DNA from: Loxodes magnus
Taxonomy: Eukaryota; Ciliophora; Karyorelictea; Loxodida; Loxodidae
Reading direction: 5' to 3'
Assembly (NCBI GenBank): GCA_946699065.1
Contig: CAMPDV010000220.1
Span: 1 to 64,000 of the forward strand
DNA: 64,000 nt
Part shown: piece by piece, positions 7,301 to 64,000 of the stretch
Numbering within the stretch: the first letter of the stretch is position 1
Layout: each line of letters opens with the position of its first letter
Program-made: the position numbers and the translations under genes
The notes under the pieces: model-generated
Told to the model about the DNA's origin: nothing
The model's database searches: none
Seen by the model: only the letters and a program-made list of their open reading frames with translations

Positions 7301-8413
7301 AACTTAAGTTCTTCTTTGAGTTGGGATGAAAGCTTTCTAATTTTTGATTGTTCACTGTCATGCTCTTCAAAATTTCATATAATGACCATAATATTTTCAA
7401 GTATCATCTTAAGTTTCTACCTACCTTTAGTTATGCTAATTTAGCCTCATTGATAAGACTTACACGAGCACTTACATATAAAGCAATAATCTAAATTCAT
7501 TTTACTAAGAGTTTACTTCTAAGTTCTTATCAATGTTTTAAACCGATTGACTAAAGAAAAAATATAGCATATTTCAAGGATTTTTTTATTCAGCCTCAAC
7601 ATTTTACATTCGCTATACTGATTTACTTAATAAAGCCATACTCATTCATGAAAGTAAATGCAATACAGTTAATGCTATTTCTTCTTGTTTCTTATATTTC
7701 CTTATTAGCAACTATAGGGCTAATATACGAAGATTCTTAGCTCCTTTTATATCCTTTATTATAGGTACTATTATCATAGCTTTATTTGGAGTCTTATATT
7801 AGAGATAATTTCCTAATTACCTAAAGCAGTATAAGCCAGACTTAATTAAGTTATTTAGATTTGCTTTTAGACCTTGGGCAAATGCAAGTTTGTTAGCTGA
7901 TTCATATAAACATATAGAAGACTAGAACTTCTGAAATGAGAAAAATATTGCTAGTAAATGTAAGAAGAGCTTCTACGATAAAGGAAAGGGAATTTAAAGA
8001 ATCCTTACTGAGAATTAGATAAAACTCTTTATTGGATATCAAGAACTAAATAGCTTAAGAAGAAGATAATTTAGACTGAGATCAAGAAAGTGGATAAAAA
8101 AACTGACAAGTAAGAGTAAAATGATATTTAAGAGTAAAAATGTTTTAGTAGCAAAGACAAAGAGTAATTGATAGTAAAGAAGTAGATACTCTAAAATGAT
8201 AGTTAAATAGAAAATTCTATGTTGGACGAAACTAAAGATGTAATAAAATTTCATAGCGAACTTAGCTTGAAAAAGAAGAATAAATTTAAAGTGAAGTTTT
8301 AACTTTAATAGAGTCAAGAAAAATATAAGAGGATTAACCAAAAGAAGAGTAAATTATTGCATAGAAGCATTAAATGGAAGAATTATAGCCAGTCTTATAG
8401 AATGATGGTATTA
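4380..8413 (+). pseudogene. Receptor-like multi-pass membrane protein, decayed copy 1
   Basis: This is the paralogue of the gene starting at 20682. It starts at ATG 4380 with a signal-peptide-like MHSLLFIFW, followed by a ligand-binding (ANF-receptor/PBP type 1-like) ectodomain and a multi-pass membrane region. Compared with copy 2 it carries several one-base length differences. There is an extra A near 4613, a lost C near 4704 (which restores frame), and extra bases near 5217, 6468, 7556 and 7590. It also has a lost A near 7738 and an extra T near 7890. The frame is therefore interrupted several times, while copy 2 stays open. The match to copy 2 stops at 8413 inside the Gln/Glu-rich tail, so the C-terminus is missing. 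Uncorrected long-read errors could explain some changes, but the long open frames elsewhere in this window argue for real decay. Confidence 0.65.
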
Positions 8414-8616
8414 GTTCATAAATTATTTAATATCAATGTTTTTTCTCTATTCTTAATGTTGTTATTTTTTTAATATATTAACTAAGCAAGTAAATATGAG
8501 ATGTAGTAGTTATGTATATTTTCTCTTATTTTAATGATAAATTGATAATCAAAACGATTTTATATAAAATTAAATGTTAAACGTTCTTATAGGTATTTCA
8601 TCCTATCTCTCGTCAA

Positions 8617-8636
8617 CCTCTAGATTAATCTAGAGG
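8617..8636. other. Perfect 20-bp palindrome at the 3' side of a coiled-coil gene
   Basis: CCTCTAGATTAATCTAGAGG is its own reverse complement. A near-identical palindrome lies at 14820-14841 and a degenerate one near 31148-31168. All three sit in a shared block of about 80 bases downstream of the minus-strand coiled-coil genes. In RNA it would form a strong hairpin, so it may serve as a 3'-end or element-end signal. The function is inferred from position only. Confidence 0.7.
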
Positions 8637-8740
8637 CTATATAGAAAATTTGTAAATCTATATAGCTCATCGCCTTACTATACATGTAGTTCTTGAATTA
8701 TTCATTGTGCTTAAATATTTTCTGCGGAAATTCAAGTAAC

Positions 8741-9489
8741 TCACCGCTCAAATAAGTGTTAAAAATGTATTATTATTTGCTTCTTTTTTTGGTGTTTGTT
8801 GCTCACTTTTTGAGTGGGGCATCGTAAAAATACTTTTGTAGATTCTCCCATCTTGATTACACCATAATTTTTGAGTCTTGATCTCTCTATTTCTGTATTA
8901 TTTCTTTAATTACTAAAATTTTTTGCAGTTTCTACACAAATACTACCAGCTGCTACAGCAACAATATATTCTCCTAGGTTTTTATTTTTATTAGGTGATT
9001 ACTGTTTATAAGTTCCTCGTTCATTTTCAGTATTCATTTCAATGCCCATATTGTGATCAGCTAGGTTTTGCTAGCTTTAATTGATCTTCTAGCTCTATTG
9101 GATGCTTCAATATTCTGATTTTGGTCTTTAACCCTCTTTACTTGGGAACTTGTCTGAATGAACCCCTCTCGCTTGTAGTTCCATAAAGATTCCTCTCACT
9201 CTCCTAAAAAACCATTCTCAATTCAAGCATAATTAAAATTCGTGTTAGATCTACTCCATCATCTTAATATTCTCTTTTGGAGTTCCTTAACCTCTTCCTT
9301 GAGGCTCAGCGCCATTTTTACGCGCTGTTCCATGCTTATATGTCCAGAAGGATTGAATTCTGAGACCTCTTGGTTTAAGGCGGACTTTGTCTATTTTTTC
9401 GGCTTCTCCTCAAAAGTAGATGCTATTGCATCATGGATCGTTTTTTGCAGCTTTTTAGTCTCCTCATAATTCTGCTACATTTCGGACAT
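8741..9489 (-). CDS. Coiled-coil protein of an element-like family, member A
   Basis: The start is taken at ATG 9489 (MSEMQQNYEETKKLQ). The N-terminal part contains a coiled coil with SLKEEVKELQKRI. The same 'LEEVKELKK' block recurs near 15410 and 32545. The C-terminal part reads GEYIVAVAAGSICVETAKNF and ends near an in-frame TGA at 8741-8743. The two halves lie in different frames, so an intron or a frame break lies between them. The 3' side carries the palindrome block shared by the three relatives. The function is unknown. An ORF1-type protein of a retroelement or an element-borne gene is the best guess from its repeated, dispersed occurrence. Member B starts similarly (MSGFNQDFM). Confidence 0.5.
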
Positions 9490-9649
9490 CTATCTTCTAG
9501 AGTGGCGAAGAATCTTTTTTCTGAAGTAATATATCTTTTTATCTTTTTATCTTGTAGTCCATGAATTATTCTTTCGCTTAGAAATGCTTTTTTCTTTTTA
9601 CTTACATATTTTTCCAAATTTTTTTGCAATATTATCTCTCTCTTTTAGT

Positions 9650-9760
9650 ATTAGTTGAAGTTTTCTAATCTTTTTATTCTTCTACTTCTTCGGTAGTTTC
9701 AATACTTTTATTTGAAGTTATGATGAAGCGTCTTTTACACAGATACGTTCGAGAGTTATA
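9650..9760 (-). other. Displaced fragment resembling the C-terminal part of member B
   Basis: The minus strand reads DATTITLERI, close to DAIIETLERIYGND in the C-terminal half of the gene at 14850-15650. Here it lies upstream, not downstream, of the start of member A. The family's pieces have therefore been rearranged. The flanking 9760-10000 reads as no clear protein. Confidence 0.4.
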
Positions 9761-10049
9761 GTAGTAGCATCTCAAGATAGTTTATTGAAACTACTAGAAG
9801 AAATAGATCAAAAGAAGAGATAAGTTAAGGTACTACTAAAAGAGCAAGTATATAGTAAAAATTTGTAGATATATAAGAGAAAAAGATAAAAATATTATCT
9901 ATGCGAAAGAATATTTCAAGGACATATATATATCAAAAAGAAGAGTTACTTTGACTTAAAAACTTTTCTTTTTAGTTTCTAATCCTAAAGGTAGGAGAAA
10001 AAGAGATTGAAATACCTCCAAAAGCAAATGCACTTAATTTTGGTCTGAA

Positions 10050-43399: not shown

Positions 43400-44150
43400 A
43401 ATAAGAATTAGTAGTTAAGATATTAGCAATTCATCGGTAAACGTTCATACTTCTAGCGAGAATTTTAGGTAAGTTAGGCTTGTCTTTTCTGGATTTGTCC
43501 TTTCTTCCCCTTGTTGGCATCTAGTGCTAGTTAAATTAATTCAAAGGTTACTTCGCCTTTTGCATAGAAGTACACTTCACCAACTATTGTACTTTCATTT
43601 TAATTTTATAGTAAGTTCTATATCCACAAATTTATTTTGGAATGAAGATTTAAGATTTTCGTGTTTCTTTAATAGAAAATATATCAAATTTATGTTATAG
43701 AGTAAACTGTTTAATACCAAATTTTTTAGCTTAAATTGAATTCATATTAGAGTAAGCTTACTGTAAAATATTGACCCTCCTTTATATCCTGGATCATAAT
43801 TACAGAGAACTTTCTGGCCTCTGTTAATTTAATATGTAACAAGCTAGGTGCTTAACATAAGAATTCCTATAGTATAAAATAATAAATAAAATAACTGTAT
43901 AATATTCTTCAGCTAGGTTTCTGTCTATTTTGATTTAAGCACAATTTCCATCACATGAATCTCAATTTATTCGTTGAGTAAAATGAGGAATCTGGCTTCT
44001 ATATCCGTAAAGAGATCCAATTCTTAGCACTTTTTTTATCTTAATAATAAATGAATTTGGCTACTTTAGAAACTGTATTTCTTTATTTAATTATCAATAT
44101 TATCTTTTAAAGATAATTATCTTGCTATATTTAATTAGGTATTTCTTAGT
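43400..44150 (-). mobile_element. LINE relic related to the element at 57-63.5 kb
   Basis: The minus strand reads KFDIFSIKETRKSQIFIPKQ then ICGYRTYYK. This matches the endonuclease start of the full LINE (LDIFSINET..., INGYRTYFK). Upstream QKVLCNYDPGYKGGSIF matches EKILCIYEPGIKGGVL, and SCDGNCAQIKIDRNLAEEYY matches TCDGNEINIKIDNKLSEKYD. The relic thus covers the pre-endonuclease domain and the first part of the endonuclease only, with frame changes and with the reverse transcriptase missing. It shows that this LINE family is old in the genome as well as recently active. Confidence 0.7.
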
Positions 44151-44498
44151 TTAATTATGCTTCTTTCCAATTGCTTTTCTAATCTTTTTTTATTCTGCAT
44201 TACTTTAGGAGAGAGTAGAAACTTAATATCCTTTTGTAAAAAAATTTAGAAGTATCTACTAAATAAATTATTTATAGCATTTAAGTTAATTTATCTATAT
44301 TCTGAGTAGATGTGCTTCATTTTAAAATTTTCTAAAATTATTTCCTCAAAATTTCAAAATTTCAATCTTGTTGTTCTGATATCTTTGTAGCAACATGAAG
44401 TTTTATTTAATTTTCGCATTCTTAATCTTTTAATAAAGGATAAAAAGGAATAAGAAAAACTAAAATTTCGTAAATAAAATAGATAATATAATTTTAAT

Positions 44499-55729: not shown

Positions 55730-56940
55730 TAAGATAAAAAAAGCTAATTTGGTATTTTATTTTATTTAGTTGTTCAATAATAGTAGAAATAAATATAAAA
55801 ATTAAATTTATAGAAATTATTCTAATTTTCTTTAACCTTTTGATAATTTAAAATAAACTTGAACTTATTTAATTTAATTTTTATTAAAATAATTTAATTT
55901 AATTTAATTTAATTTAAATTAGCTAGTTTGTAGATTGTTTTTAGATTATATTTATATAAGCAATATTTATTTTTTAATTTGTTTTTGTAATTTTCTTTAT
56001 TTAATATCAGCTATTTTCTAATTCTTTTTTTTATCTTTTTTTATTTTTTAAAAATATTTTAAAAAAAATCAAAATTAAATTCCATTTATTTCAAAAATCT
56101 ATTATTTTACAATTGTTTTTTAATTTCTAAATTTATAAAATTTATTTAATTTTAATATATTAGTAAATTTTTTAATTATATAATTTTTAACTTGGTAAAA
56201 TTAAAAATTTACTTAATAGTTCTTATTAACTTTTGTAAATATAAATAAAAAATTAAAATTTAATAGATTTATCAGATAAAAATTAATTTAATTTATATTA
56301 ATAAAAAAGTAATTATTTCTGAAACTAATTATTAACTTATTTTTTATTATATTAAACTATTTGCTATTAGATATAATTAATTATTTTTATACTCTAATAA
56401 AGAATAGCTTTTTATTACTATTATATTAATAAAGCTATCTATCATTTAATTTTTATTTCGAGATTCTTTGACAAAATTTAAAACCAGTTTCGTTTATTAG
56501 TACTACAATGAAAATCTATGAAATAATTAAATATAGGAAACTATTAAAATTCTGAAATAGCGTAACCTTATTTAATCAGTAGAATGGAATTTCTCAAAAA
56601 GAGATTAAAGCCCATTAAATTTGAGTATGATTTTTTGATAAGTTTATTTATAAATAAAAATTATTAGCTATATATATAACTCATATATCTAAATAATCTA
56701 ATAGCAATAAATAATTCATCAGATTACTAGTTTTAAATATATTATATTATTTAAATTTTATAATTAACCATATAAGACTTTCATTAAATAACATTTTATA
56801 TTTCTTTGAAACTTTTTAAATTTTATTTAATTTAGCTTCTTTATATTTTACATTTAAATAAATAATTAATAAAAAATATAATCTTATATTTTTAAAGCGG
56901 GATTTAGAATCTATTATTTCTTTAAATTAAATTTAACTAA
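55730..56940. other. AT-rich spacer; TTTAA pentamer repeat at 55887-55920
   Basis: No gene is seen. A run of TTTAA units at 55887-55920 repeats the motif found at 4344-4375. The rest is A/T runs up to the 3' end of the LINE. Confidence 0.5.
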
Positions 56941-56952
56941 AAAAATTTGTGG

Positions 56953-56992
56953 TACCTTCAATTTTCAGAATATGTTCTTCAAATTGAAGGTA
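56953..56992. other. Perfect 12-bp hairpin in the LINE 3' region
   Basis: TACCTTCAATTT and AAATTGAAGGTA are exact reverse complements with a 16-base loop, 29 bases after the TGA that ends the LINE frame. LINEs often carry a 3' stem-loop that the reverse transcriptase recognises. That role is inferred from position. Confidence 0.75.
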
Positions 56993-57020
56993 TTATATTG
57001 TTTTTAAATGTTATTATATA

Positions 57021-60000
57021 TCAAGTTTATTGCTCTTCAGAACTAATTTTCTAGTTTAGGTTTTTTTTTTCTTCTAAGTATCTCCTTTCTTGTTCATTTT
57101 CAAACTAACTTTCATTTTTTTCTATTTTCTGTTGTCAATCTTCTTCTTCTTCATCTTCACTATCGTTTTCCTCTTCGTTCCAATCTTCTTCTTCCTCATC
57201 ATTTTTCATCTAATTTTGTTGGACATCTTATTCTTTGTTTTCTTGTTTTTATTATTCTTCATTCTCTTCATTAAAATTTTCTATTCTTAGATTTGCTTCT
57301 TTTTATTATTTCTCGTATTGCTCTTCTTCTTTCTCTTGTTATAGAATTTCTCGCCTCCTTTTGATAAACATTTGAATGAATATTTTTATTTATTCATCCA
57401 CCATTTCTATTTTTTTCTTAGAAAAAGAGTTTATATATAGTTAATCGTAACTTATTAGTTTCAAAATATCACATTAACCAATTTTGGAGACCAATCATTC
57501 TCTTATATCAATGTAATATATACATTCCATTACATGTTGGAGAGTGTCATATTCTCCGCATATACAAAAAGGGTTTTCAATAATATAATTTCGATCTTTC
57601 AGAGTCTTTCGAAATGCGTAAGACTGGCTTCTAATCTTATAGATGCAAATTATTTCTTTCAAATATTTTTTGTTTAATTTTGTGTATGTTATTTTGGGAA
57701 ATTATCTTAGGTTTTAAAATTGTTCTGTATATATTTATGCAGTAGGCATTCTGCTGAATCTTGAAAGAGCTAATTCAAAATATGTCTTTTATATTTATGC
57801 CTACACATATTTACTGAATTAAGTTAAGTTGTTATTGTGCTCTTTATTATCAATTTCTATTTTATAAAATGAGGCCAGTTTCTAAACTTCATCATAATAT
57901 TGATATCCCTCTTTATAATTGTTCTCAAACAATATTCCAATAGATGATTAAGGTTGATTTTAGCTTTCATTTCTAATCTTAAAGAAAAACCTGAAATACT
58001 TAAGAGCCATCATGTGTTTGAATGGCATCCAGTTGAGGTCTACAAAGCATGATTCATTAAACGTATTTCCTGCTGATTAAAAGGCTTTTCTGGCTATTAA
58101 CCTCATGCTCTTTTCAATTCTGTTCAAGATTCCATTTATTCCATACTGAACAGTCCAAGGTATTAAGTCCCCACCGTATTCTGCTTTAGGAAGCGTGAAC
58201 AGTCTACAAAGCATTTTGAAGTTTCAAGGTGTTACGTTTCTATATCTTGATAATGCAAATACTGCCTTTTTAATTGCTGAAAGATAGTTTGCAGCAACGT
58301 ATTTGCAATGGTTAATTAGATTCTTCTTTTGGTGAAGGATCACCCCTAAATATGTGACTTGCTGTTTCTAAATTATTGCTTGGTCTCCTATTTTTAAGTC
58401 TAGTTTTGTTTCTTTGCTTTTCTTTTTTAAAAACTATATCGTTTCGCATTTGGAGACATTTATTTTAAGAAATGTCTAATTGAAAATGGAGTTTGCTTCA
58501 TTAATAAGTGACTACATATTTTTTTATGAGTTCGATAATAGGATTAAATCGTCAGCTCAACCTCTACAAGTGAACCTATTCTTAAAATTAGCACATCTGA
58601 ATCCTAATATTTCTCCTTTGTTTTCTATATGTCTAATGACAATGTCATAGTATAATAATGCAAGCACAGGTCCATGCGAACTTCCTTACATCACTCCATT
58701 GCTAAATTTCAATTTCTTAGAATTTGCTCCGTCTATAATAAAGGAAGTAGTTAAGTTATTATAAAATGATTCTAAAGCCAAGATGAGACCTAGTGGTAAT
58801 TTGACTCTTCTTAGTTATTTAAAAAGAATTCTTCTTTCAATAGAATCAAACATTTTCTCTACGTCAATTAAAGTTGCAATCAATTTAGTTTTTCCTTTCG
58901 CTTGTTTTCGATAAAGATCTATGATTTATTGGATCACTCATATTTATTAGGTGGTTTATTTGTTCTTCATAAACCCCATTTAGCTTGAGTGGATTAACTG
59001 TCTTTCATAAATTATTGAGTAGAGTCTCTTCGTAAGGGCCTTATCATATAATTTCAAAATAGTATTGATAAGGGAAATAGGGCGTCAGTTTTTTCAATCG
59101 TCTTTACTTCCTTTTTTGAAAATGGGGATTATGATAGAAGTATTAAGCTCTTCAGGAATCCTTCCAATTCTAAGCATGTTATTTATAAAAGAATGAAGCA
59201 TCAACGCTAGATAATATCCTGCATATTTTAGCAGTTCTCCTTTTATTCCATCTGGCCCTGCTGCTTTACCATTAGGAATTAGACTTATAAGTTAGGTAAT
59301 CTCTTCTATTGTAAAAGGATCGAAATTTTATAAGTAAGAAAAGGGTTAATTTTGAATTTCTATGTTATTTTCATAAATTGCATCTATTTTCTAGTTACTT
59401 AGTTCAATCTATTGGTTAGTTAAATTCGAATGCTTGCTAAATACCTAATTTTCCCATGCTTCTACAAATTAGTCCTTCAATTCCTTATTAAAATTCATCA
59501 AATTTCTTTGTCTAGGGTTAAGTATTTTCTTTGCTTAAGAAAACATATCTTTTGTGGTTTCATTGAGGAGTAGGAATCTGTTTTTGGCCTTTTGTTTTTT
59601 AAATTTTCATAAATGATGCTAAAAGCTTTTTCATAATGTGTTCGCTCTTTAGTGAAGATCAATGATTTCTTAGTTATTCCTCCCTATATATGCTAAAGTT
59701 TCTTTGTACAATTAATTTGCTCTCTTTGCTTCGATATATTTTTATGTGAGGTCCTTAGGAAGTCTATTATACTTCGGGTCTGGGATAAATGAGCCTAAAA
59801 CTTAATCTGCATTGTTCTAAATGCAGTCTCTAATATAAGTGTATTAATCTTCTAAGTTATCTCTATCAATTAGGAAGAATACTTCTACTTAATCTTTGAA
59901 TGAATTCTAATAGATAAATCTATCAATAGGATCCTATAGTCTACTTATTTTGTACTTTCTCACTTTTATTTTTTCAGTTTGAAGATGAGTATGGTATACA

Positions 60001-63000
60001 AATTCAACTGTGAATGGAATATGATCTGAAAATAAGCTATAATTATGAACCTGAAAATTTCTAAATTAATTCATATTCAAGTGATTACTGATGACAATAT
60101 AATCGTTGCAATACATATTTTTATTCCCTTTATGTAAACATGTGTTCATATTTGCATCGTTTATTATTTCTAAATCGTTTTAGAGAATGAATTCTTAGAA
60201 TCTATTTGTATTGTCATAGTTGTTAATAGGGTTATCCCCAAAGTCTTATAGTAGAGCGTTAAAATCTCCTAATAATATATGTGAGTTGTCAGGAAAAGAA
60301 TTAAGGAATACATTTATATATTCATATGCTTCGTCTTTTATATTTTCACTCTTGCTGTTATCTGGCATGTAACAAGATGTTATGAATATATTATCTAGTT
60401 TGATTGTAACGAACCTCTCTTGAGCTAATTGTTATATGCTATTCTATTCCGTGCTATTAAGTTAATCTCTAACAATTAAGCAAACTCCTCCTCCTTTTCC
60501 TGAGTTCTTGAAATAGGTCCTATATCCATTAATAAGTATTGGAGGATAGTCTTATTTTTATCACGTTTCATTAATTGAGAAAATGTCTAAGTCATTATTT
60601 CGTATAAATTCTTCCACGTTTAATTGCTTGCTTCCAATTCCATTTATGTTAATATGTCCAAGCTTTATTATGCCTATCTCTCTTTGCTTATCGATTGGCA
60701 TCTTTATTTCTTAATTCCCAAATTCTTGTTTGCATTAATATGGTTATTCTACATTGTTCTCTACACCTCCTTTGAGTCTTAGTTATTTTTAAAGGACAAT
60801 ATAGTTAATTCTAAAATCGGTTTATAGCAGCGTTTTAACTATATAATTTCCGTTTTTTATAAATCGATGAATTTCTTATGATGAAGTCAAAACTCCTCCT
60901 TTTATTCCTGGCTCATAAATACAGAGAATCTTCTCATTTTGATGAATTTATATGTTAAGCAATTTGGGGCAATTTTTGATATATTACCTGTAACTTATTA
61001 TAATGAATAATGTTAATGAATCGTACTTTTCGCTCAATTTATTATCGATTTTTATATTTATTTCATTTCCATCACACGTAGCATGGTTTAGTTTGCAAGA
61101 TAAAGTTATAAATCTATTGCCTACTAAAGTGAAAAGATTCTAATTTCATCATTTATTGGACCTTATAAATTGAATTAGTTAGGCGTCTTTAAATTCGTAT
61201 TTATTTAAAATCTCTTCAATATTTACTTCATTAAACCCAAATTTTGACTATTTTAAGTTTAAAGTGTCTTGGTTAAATTTGGCATCTCTTCAACTTCTCT
61301 TTCCAAATTTTGTTTGGCTATCCCAATTCATCACATATGATGTCTAGATATTTGAATTTTCTAAAATTTCAATCTGCTAATCTTCTTAAATTTAATCAAT
61401 TAAAAGTGTTTATGTTGAAGGGTTTCATTTTATTTCTTTCAAGTAAGATTGAGTTTTAACATCTTATTATTTTCTCTATATTTCTGAAATTTATGCATAA
61501 ACATTTAGCTTCAATTCTACTTGATGCTCATAATCCTGCATGAGTTAAACATATAATCCGTTTAATTCATTATATTACTCTTACAGTTTTCCATTATTCT
61601 ATTTTGTGATTTATAGTTCTTGTTAAGAAGCAACTAGCTAATGATTGGTAACTACTGTTATTGTTCCTTCATCCTTAGCCTTGATAGAATTTTAAGTTTA
61701 AATAACCTAATTCTTTAACTCCATGATTTTTGTCTAACTATAATTGCTTATTAATTTCCCTTTTTCTGTTCATGTTCAAGCATCTTTGCTATTAATTTTT
61801 AAACAGGTTTGTGTTTCCTTTTCTCAAAACTATTTTTATTAACACGAGACAAGCCTTTAGTTGACACTCTATATATCTTAATTGATAAATTATTTGTTTA
61901 ATTTATCATATAAATTCTACAACTTTGTATACTTCAATTCAACGAAGTCGCACTAGGTAGATTGATCTAAGAATAATAAGTCTGTACCAGTAGTTGAATC
62001 TAAAGTCGATATAGTTTCTTGAGAAATTTAGTTGCTGAATTGAATTTCAATTTATGTTTATTCATTCTATGCCTGAGGAGTGATTGTTTATGTAAAAAGG
62101 CTTTTGACTGATTTGGCATATTTATTTTTTTGAAAGCTCAGTTCCTATGATATTTAATAATTCTCATTTTGTAATAATTAACACTAAGCCTGCTGTTACT
62201 GGCAATTGACTGTGAGTGAATGTACCTTTTAGTTGATCTGATCTATTTTGCTTAATAAATGAAAATTTTCACCTTTGAGATTTTAGTTAAGAGTTTCTAC
62301 CTCTCTAAGATGTTATTATACTTCATTATGTCTCAAATTACATTTACTCAATTCAGCTTGAATGAATTAAATTTGAGTAACCAAGTTGTTTATAATATTT
62401 TGGGCTTCTTACTTGGAAGCAAGTATTGCCTCATCTTGTAGTTTAAATGATTGTGTCATGTTCATTAGCTCCTCACTAAGCATAGCTTGTTTTACTATAC
62501 TTTGCTATTAAGTCTAAGTGAGAAGTTAACTCTAAGTTTCCAATTCTTATATTTAAGTTAAGGAAAGATCAGTATTCGTTTATATTGATTATTATTTATT
62601 TGTAGCATTATTTACAAATTATTTGGACTAAAGCATTAACTATTTCTACTAATTATCAAACCTTAAGATTTAATTTTTATTCTAGATTTTCTTAATTTAC
62701 TTTTGAGCTTTAAATAAATAATTTTGGTATTATTCTAAGTGTATTTTATATTGTGATTTAATGTTTAAAGTTTCTTTATTGTGTTACTCATATATATGTA
62801 TTAGCTTTTCTTACAGAGAATTATTTTTAGTTATGAGTTTTTAAATTCGAAATTTAAGATTTTTGCTTTCACTTAGCCTTTAATTTTCAAAAGTATTTGC
62901 CTCTTCTATCTTGCTTTAAATTTTATATTTTAATTTTGCAATTTTTTCTTAAAGTTACGCATTTTAAATCTCAAGATCAGTTAAGTATGTAATATCAAAC

Positions 63001-63539
63001 TTCTCTTAGTAATCAGTTTAAATGTCTATTGAAATCTGCTATTGAATTTTAATGTTATTTTGTGTATTGAATTGTTGAATTTTTATAGTCTCTTATTAAT
63101 TTTGTATTTAAATTTAATTTTAGTTTTTAATTAAAGAAATATCTTAAATATCCTAACTATCTAAAGTATCTTACTGTATATTGGATATTTTAGATACCAT
63201 CGTAGAGGTTGAAGTAACAAGCTAGTCTTTTTACCTATAAGTATATTTCCTATATTTGAGATTAGTCTTCAATTAATGTCCACGTTTTAAAGAATTGCCA
63301 AGCTGTCTTAGTGGAATTCGAAGATATCTATTAATTTGGCATTAACTGCAGCTCTTTAGCAAATTTCTTAGTAATTTCATGATATTATCAACGGATTTAA
63401 GTTGCAGCGATTCCATGTCTATTTCATAAAAGTAGTTGAGCATCTGCCTATGCTCATCGTTTTAGAAAGCAGCTTCTTTATTTTTAGATAAAGAAGAGTC
63501 GCTAAGAAAGAAATCTTGCGAATTTTTGTACATGTCCAT
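57021..63539 (-). CDS. LINE polyprotein: coiled coil, endonuclease, reverse transcriptase, zinc domain
   Basis: ATG 63539 (MDMYKNSQDFFLSDSSLSKN) to a TAA/TGA pair (57027-57029, 57021-57023) gives 2172 codons in one phase, checked at seven points. Residues ~150-700 form a Gln-rich coiled coil (LEIQNAQLQEKIAKLKYKI). The endonuclease starts near 956 (IGIIKLGHININGIG), with INET-W at 989-993 (Glu991, Trp993 from TGA), GDFN at 1091-1094 and SDH at 1171-1173, all catalytic signatures. In the reverse transcriptase, N-W-RPISL has its Trp at 1485 (usually Tyr), NGVMQGS is at 1614 and W-ADD at 1661-1664, the metal-binding Asp pair, usually F/Y-ADD. C1992-x-C1994-x7-H2002-x3-C2006 is the C-terminal zinc motif. 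An acidic tail (EEEEDWNEEENDSEDEEEED) ends it. It copies RNA at a nicked target. Confidence 0.9.
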
Positions 63540-63555
63540 TTTTTTTTTTTTTTTA

Positions 63556-64000
63556 TAACTAATTCTTATTAATCTATTATTTCTTTAAATTAAACTCTTT
63601 TAACTAAAGATTTTCATTCGAATTTTAAATACATCATCCTTGCTAAAAATCATTCTTCTTCTGTTCTTTTTTAGTCTTAAAATCACTTTTTTCTTTACTT
63701 TCAGCTTTTAAAACTTAATTTAAAAATCTCAGTGTCTTTAGTTATAGAATTTTTATGCAATATTACACTATTCTCGTTGGGCATATTTCAAAATTACTAA
63801 AAAAATTTTCTTAATTTTTCTCATTTTACTAATATCTTTTAAAGTGAAGAGGTTTTTAGCAAATGTAGAACTTTATCCTTCTTCAACCCACGGGATTTAA
63901 TTTGAAGATTGTTTTTCTTAATTTTGTTCTATTTCTATTGACATTAATAGACTCTGTTTAGAAGAAATTGGTAGATCTTATATTTATTATTATATTTAAT
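63556..64000. other. Flank of the LINE; no gene seen
   Basis: AT-rich. Minus-strand reading gives only short protein-like bits. The element's 5' leader may extend here, but no border signal is visible. Confidence 0.35.

Follow-up and report, generated by a model that had tools for sequence, protein, structure and literature searches.

The window analyzed here, a 64,000-nucleotide stretch of the Loxodes magnus genome (positions 1 to 64,000 of contig CAMPDV010000220.1, assembly GCA_946699065.1), carries on its minus strand a single open reading frame (ORF) of 2172 codons (63539-57021) that, translated with genetic code table 27, runs from M1 to T2172 and is followed by TGA. The frame belongs to an apurinic/apyrimidinic (AP) endonuclease-type non-long terminal repeat retrotransposon, or long interspersed element (LINE): it encodes a reverse transcriptase (RT) with its catalytic aspartate pair (DD), preceded by an AP endonuclease (EN), and the element has target-site duplications as well as 5′-truncated copies with a common 3′ end (Table 1). 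An earlier note on this DNA had described a LINE frame holding ORF1-like, endonuclease and RT parts without a break, and both the translation and Pfam confirm that description. We consider it likely that this is a single-polyprotein LINE in which an ORF1-like part is fused to the endonuclease and RT, that such fusion is usual in this host, and that the host's genetic code is the reason for it.

As the note had proposed, the ATG at 63539 and the motifs SINETW, GDFN, SDH, NWRPISL, NGVMQGS, WADD and CICGEYDTLQHVMEC share one phase when read with table 27, in which UAA and UAG specify glutamine, while UGA specifies tryptophan inside the frame and also serves as stop; the conserved motifs require these readings. 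UAR accounts for 164 of the 240 glutamine codons, and 17 of the 22 internal tryptophan codons are TGA, the other five being TGG. The tryptophan of WADD (codon 1661, 58557-58559, minus strand), the motif that aligns to FADD of LINE-1 and contains the catalytic DD, is written TGA in all 21 aligned rows, so that an intact RT can be made only if UGA is decoded as an amino acid. Residues 11-828 of LINE-1 ORF2p align to codons 962-1795, with the EN and RT motifs in register. Upstream of these domains, the proposed coiled coil held up in part: a heptad test gave a signal at codons 169-252 (z 3.6) and 421-504 (z 2.8), with two prolines within 85-756, but no signal was seen in the remaining blocks of the N-terminal region, and a block beyond it (925-1008) reaches 2.4. 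We regard a coiled coil in the N-terminal ORF1-like part as plausible, not proven. The linker region between this part and the endonuclease has no Pfam match, and a single-sequence AlphaFold model of it, with a predicted local distance difference test score (pLDDT) of 35, was unusable and was set aside.

Because TAA, TAG and TGA are all sense codons here, the openness of the frame in itself proves nothing; the evidence for fusion is instead the common phase and the fact that the copies hardly ever differ by a frameshift. Searches of the genome (705,730,643 bases) with the 3′ end and the 5′ part of the element each yielded 40 scored matches, out of 1,218 and 1,457 candidates, respectively, all at 98-100% identity. 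The 20 copies fetched comprise 15 of full length and five that are 5′-truncated. Among the resulting 16 full-length copies (window copy counted), 15 are free of frameshifts in codons 1-2100 and 12 through codon 2172. Three (L028, L029, L031) are shifted within the last 70 codons only, and L018 has decayed, with three frameshifting deletions. The remaining insertions and deletions (indels) keep the frame: three copies differ by 9 nt, one by 3 nt and L018 by 6 nt. Codons 144-1141 are free of indels in every full-length copy besides that of the window (15 copies). Two separate frames in related copies, the outcome that the earlier note had set against its own reading, were thus not seen in this family. 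Furthermore, a stretch of 751 nt over the linker and EN has exactly that length in all 40 scored matches. A two-ORF layout, with a stop or a frame change between ORF1 and ORF2, was not encountered, although sequence alone cannot separate a stop from a tryptophan codon. The terminal stop is readable in every row of the printed alignment, the lower automatic column count of 12 being an effect of gap placement, and a 2-nt indel lies directly 3′ of it in nine of the 15 other full-length copies. When changes were pooled, the ratio of non-synonymous to synonymous change (dN/dS) was 0.65 in the fused frame versus 0.98 and 1.45 in the other two frames.

More distant sequences extend this comparison. 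The window also holds a frameshifted relict of a diverged relative (43605-44445), which spans the end of the coil, the linker stretch and the start of EN; codons 773-928 are 29% identical to the relict at 44101-43634. Since the linker stretch is present in this relict, it must be old. Another older relative, on the minus strand at L029:151-1747 and 8376-9970, is interrupted by a window-family insertion and lacks codons 181-1123. Its two pieces lie 1013-1029 bp apart in seven of the eight uninterrupted contigs that have both nearby, and closer in C546, a spacing that points to an internally deleted lineage, seemingly mobilized in trans. A sister full-length family was considered and rejected, as the diverged copies belong to this lineage with the internal deletion. 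Over codons 14-104 of the L029 relict, dN is 0.29 and dS 0.86; dN/dS of the RT stretch was void, as dS is saturated there and the pieces are unequal in length.

The eight top-scoring RVT_1 loci are members of a second LINE family, 22-25% identical to the window family over EN-RT (36% in one 66-residue piece) and about 23% in the RT. In L039, ORF1, linker, EN and RT stand in one frame up to residue 1334, where a frameshift follows; in L041 (family 2b, a subfamily about 31% identical), residues 12-1065 are in one frame and the locus ends in early RT; and in L042, residues 226-627 are in one frame, shifted on both sides. The frame of L037 is intact from residue 1 as far as about 568, at which point a nucleotide present in the aligned copies is missing. 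ORF1 is therefore in phase with the endonuclease in the second family also, in two subfamilies about 31% identical. L040 and the match lengths had suggested that a +1 frameshift joins ORF1 to EN, the arrangement of Paramecium groups 1-2. This was rejected: L040 has lost one nucleotide of an A-run, a deletion absent from L037 and L039, and the junction has the length of L039's in 39 of 40 full matches, two further rows being short pieces. The 5′ end of the second family lies about 28 nt ahead of the first ATG of the frame; query position 7 is the start of 33 of 41 rows, position 8 of two and position 1 of five, among them the query itself. Its ORF1 has a CCHC knuckle in four of five rows and, in a low-confidence model only, an RRM-like unit. 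RRM plus CCHC is a known ORF1 type, which the second-family ORF1 appears to resemble, and which the window-family N-terminus does not resemble by sequence. L024:1-866 (minus strand) and L043 represent one more subfamily of the second family, which is frameshifted, shares about 52% identity in the ORF1 tail and adjoins a window-family copy.

Several observations weigh against a fusion imposed by the code. In the second family, frameshifts occur close to the junction in L038, L040 (one base, in the A-run) and L043, and inside EN or RT in L037, L039, L042, L003 and L006. The junction matches are the best-scoring ones, which biases them towards equal length. In the window family, dN/dS exceeds 1 in codons 501-740 and 1201-1410, the values for single regions being noisy, and the ratio is weak evidence because the copies are so alike; we therefore abandoned judging selection on this family alone, with too few differences and some regions above 1. 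For the N-terminal part, neither Pfam nor PDB gave a sequence match. Moreover, the fusion is known here from DNA, so that a second product is possible, and a cause is not proven by two families from a single host.

Published decoding rules bear on the codons between the ORF1-like part and EN. In L. magnus, UGA is the sole stop and can code for tryptophan when it lies at a sufficient distance upstream of the poly(A) tail (PMC11441545). For Condylostoma and Parduczia, it has been proposed that translation is the default and that termination is imposed by transcript ends, stop-type codons distant from these ends being read as sense (PMC4967479). The first reading of the sequence had suggested that an internal TGA might act as a partial stop that sets the ORF1:ORF2 ratio, and had pointed to residues 700-950 as the place to look for a conserved one. 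Four are present (705, 750, 797 and 798) and invariant in all 16 full-length copies, which says little because these copies are nearly identical. In the window relict, the codon matching 750 is TGG (tryptophan), TGA recurs at the position of 705, and tryptophan is absent at 797/798; the residues flanking 705 and 750 are kept in frame between the window copy and the relict. Codon 750 fits tryptophan, not stop; codon 705 alone may be either. With 17 internal tryptophans written TGA, the WADD active site among them, and distant codons of this type read as sense in Condylostoma and Parduczia (PMC4967479), the partial stop finds no support, and we consider it extremely unlikely. Alternatively, premature polyadenylation in the linker could leave an internal UGA directly ahead of a poly(A) tail, so that this codon would act as a stop and an ORF1-only mRNA would arise from the same DNA. 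This would follow from the published rule of poly(A) nearness (PMC11441545, PMC4967479) and would restore an excess of ORF1, but no linker UGA stands out among the tryptophan codons, and this route appears very unlikely.

An internal ATG, also sought in the interval from about 700 to 950, is indeed present at codon 947. As it is close to the LINE-1 ORF2p start, one frame could give two products, with a separate ORF2 protein made from this internal start or from a shorter transcript. Family 2a and L042 have a methionine at a comparable position, but L041 (family 2b) and the window relict have none near there, and by our own estimate its presence in three of four lineages is not beyond chance (methionine makes up 37 of the 2172 residues of the frame). 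We judge a separate ORF2 protein improbable.

The element exceeds the frame, extending over 6.63 kb from 56922 to about 63554, with a 99-nt 3′ untranslated region (UTR) and almost no 5′ UTR. Thirteen of the 15 full-length copies start at 63544-63556, 5-17 nt upstream of the ATG and mostly inside an A run; L020 starts at 63573, 34 nt ahead of the ATG, and the alignment of L025 extends into the flank. The RNA leader seemingly is just this short, mostly-A run (63540-63554; 5′ ends of L017-L032), which varies between copies. The 3′ ends of the 20 fetched copies lie at 56906-56922, and the core of a 3′ UTR hairpin (56954-56991) is exact in 17 of them and has one mismatch in three. Flank stretches of at least 14 nt are common to both sides in 17 of 21 copies, compared with four of 420 mismatched pairs; L020, L025, L027 and L034 have no common stretch of that length, and L035 and L036, whose flanks are identical, may be one locus assembled twice. 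The target-site duplications, 5′ truncations and 3′ hairpin suggest insertion by target-primed reverse transcription, and the window family is young and multi-copy and was most likely active recently. An Rfam scan of 56500-64000 gave nothing above gathering thresholds, and a search for relatives with an RT fragment in viral contigs and genome contigs confirmed none. Elsewhere in the genome, G000:C5131 and G000:C20 carry head-to-tail arrays of RT-bearing segments with a period of 2,532 bp (2,504 bp, three units, on C5131).

Table 1. Features of the LINE copy and of the diverged relict in the window
Feature	Position	Strand	Remarks
Whole LINE copy	56922..63554	-	Short A-rich leader, one frame, 99-nt 3′ UTR
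Fused open reading frame	57021..63539	-	ATG 63539, 2172 codons plus stop UGA 57023-57021
N-terminal ORF1-like part	61281..63539	-	Codons 1-753; coiled-coil-like stretches by heptad test
Linker region	60690..61280	-	Codons 754-950; conserved stretch about 773-890 (LCxYxPGxKGG)
In-frame ATG, codon 947	60699..60701	-	5 codons before the residue aligned with LINE-1 ORF2p residue 1
AP endonuclease domain	60021..60653	-	Codons 963-1173; PF03372 (Exo_endo_phos) 5.9e-10, PF14529 8.5e-9, within 963-1175
Reverse transcriptase domain	58335..59108	-	Codons 1478-1735; PF00078 (RVT_1) 9.2e-32
Stop UGA	57021..57023	-	Readable in 21/21 aligned rows
3′ UTR hairpin	56953..56992	-	12-bp outer stem; energy z -3.77, 0/200 shuffles as good
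5′ target-site duplication copy	63571..63590	-	20 nt
3′ target-site duplication copy	56908..56927	-	First 6 nt overlap 3′ end of element
Frameshifted relict of diverged relative	43605..44445	-	Matches codons 663-1011; pieces 28-40% identical

Under the favored reading, in which the code accounts for the fusion, translation would start at the ATG at the extreme 5′ end of the RNA and would terminate at one UGA close to its 3′ end. A stop at the end of ORF1 would sit nearly four kilobases from the 3′ end and hence would be read as tryptophan; if internal UGA is so read, a two-ORF message should not work, and a fused frame would be the expected outcome. The earlier idea that lost stop codons leave no way to mark an ORF boundary fits the published decoding rules (PMC11441545, PMC4967479), and for this element we infer, rather than observe, a single fused product and a causal role of the code. 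The link from code to fusion draws on two families in one host and on one contrast, that with Paramecium; fusion is probably general for LINEs in L. magnus. In many LINEs, the RNA-binding protein and the enzyme are separate products, made in unequal amounts. A host unable to stop inside a message would provide a natural test of whether the ORFs need to be separate, and of how a code shapes its parasites. Fused LINEs are predicted in Loxodes, Parduczia and Condylostoma, and separate ORFs in relatives with dedicated stops. A bolder version, to which we give somewhat less than an even chance, is that context-dependent stops bar bicistronic messages, that every LINE in such hosts has been forced to join ORF1 to ORF2, and that the layout dates the code change; if true, the layout of an entire class of mobile elements has been reshaped by the genetic code.

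Alternatively, the fusion may be real but unrelated to the code, either because a same-frame ancestor lost its boundary by drift or because single-frame LINEs arrived before the code changed. L1Tc of Trypanosoma cruzi has a single-frame layout. Like the window element, it is a LINE with several functions in frame, so that such LINEs do occur outside ciliates, and it has a 2A self-cleaving sequence (PMC4748587). In contrast, the N-terminal part of the window element comprises about 950 codons and has no NPG/NPGP 2A motif; 2A-type self-cleavage was rejected, as its 2172 residues contain no NPG. The germline LINEs of Paramecium are likewise ciliate AP endonuclease-RT LINEs with an upstream ORF1, and in group 3 the two ORFs already share a frame (PMC5405496), as a same-frame ancestor of code-independent origin would. 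However, ORF1 is kept apart in groups 1-3, in which ORF2 has been inferred to require frameshift, re-initiation or read-through (PMC5405496), whereas no boundary is seen in the window element. Two distant families are fused in one host, so that chance fusion would have been needed twice unless their ancestor was already fused, and we regard an origin unrelated to the code as rather unlikely.

Within L. magnus, the 706 Mbp macronuclear assembly has been reported to contain about 2,700 copies of RVT_1, 1,200 of Exo_endo_phos_2 and two LINE families 5-6 kb long, and a term search of the main text of that paper found nothing on open reading frame layout, polyproteins or bicistronic messages (PMC11441545). 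As the published consensus is 5-6 kb and the element described here 6.63 kb, it may or may not belong to one of these two families. In a search of the open-licence literature, we recognized no fused or single-frame LINEs in ciliates or in combination with context-dependent stops. PDB matches were to LINE-1 and R2-like proteins only and so do not place the clade of the window element. Human LINE-1 resembles it in that EN and RT align in register, and the coiled coil of LINE-1 ORF1p has a counterpart in the coiled-coil-like part upstream in the window element; human LINE-1 is bicistronic, whereas the window element joins codons 1-946 to the ORF2-like part. The parts of this LINE are ordinary; what is new is their fusion and its link to the code.
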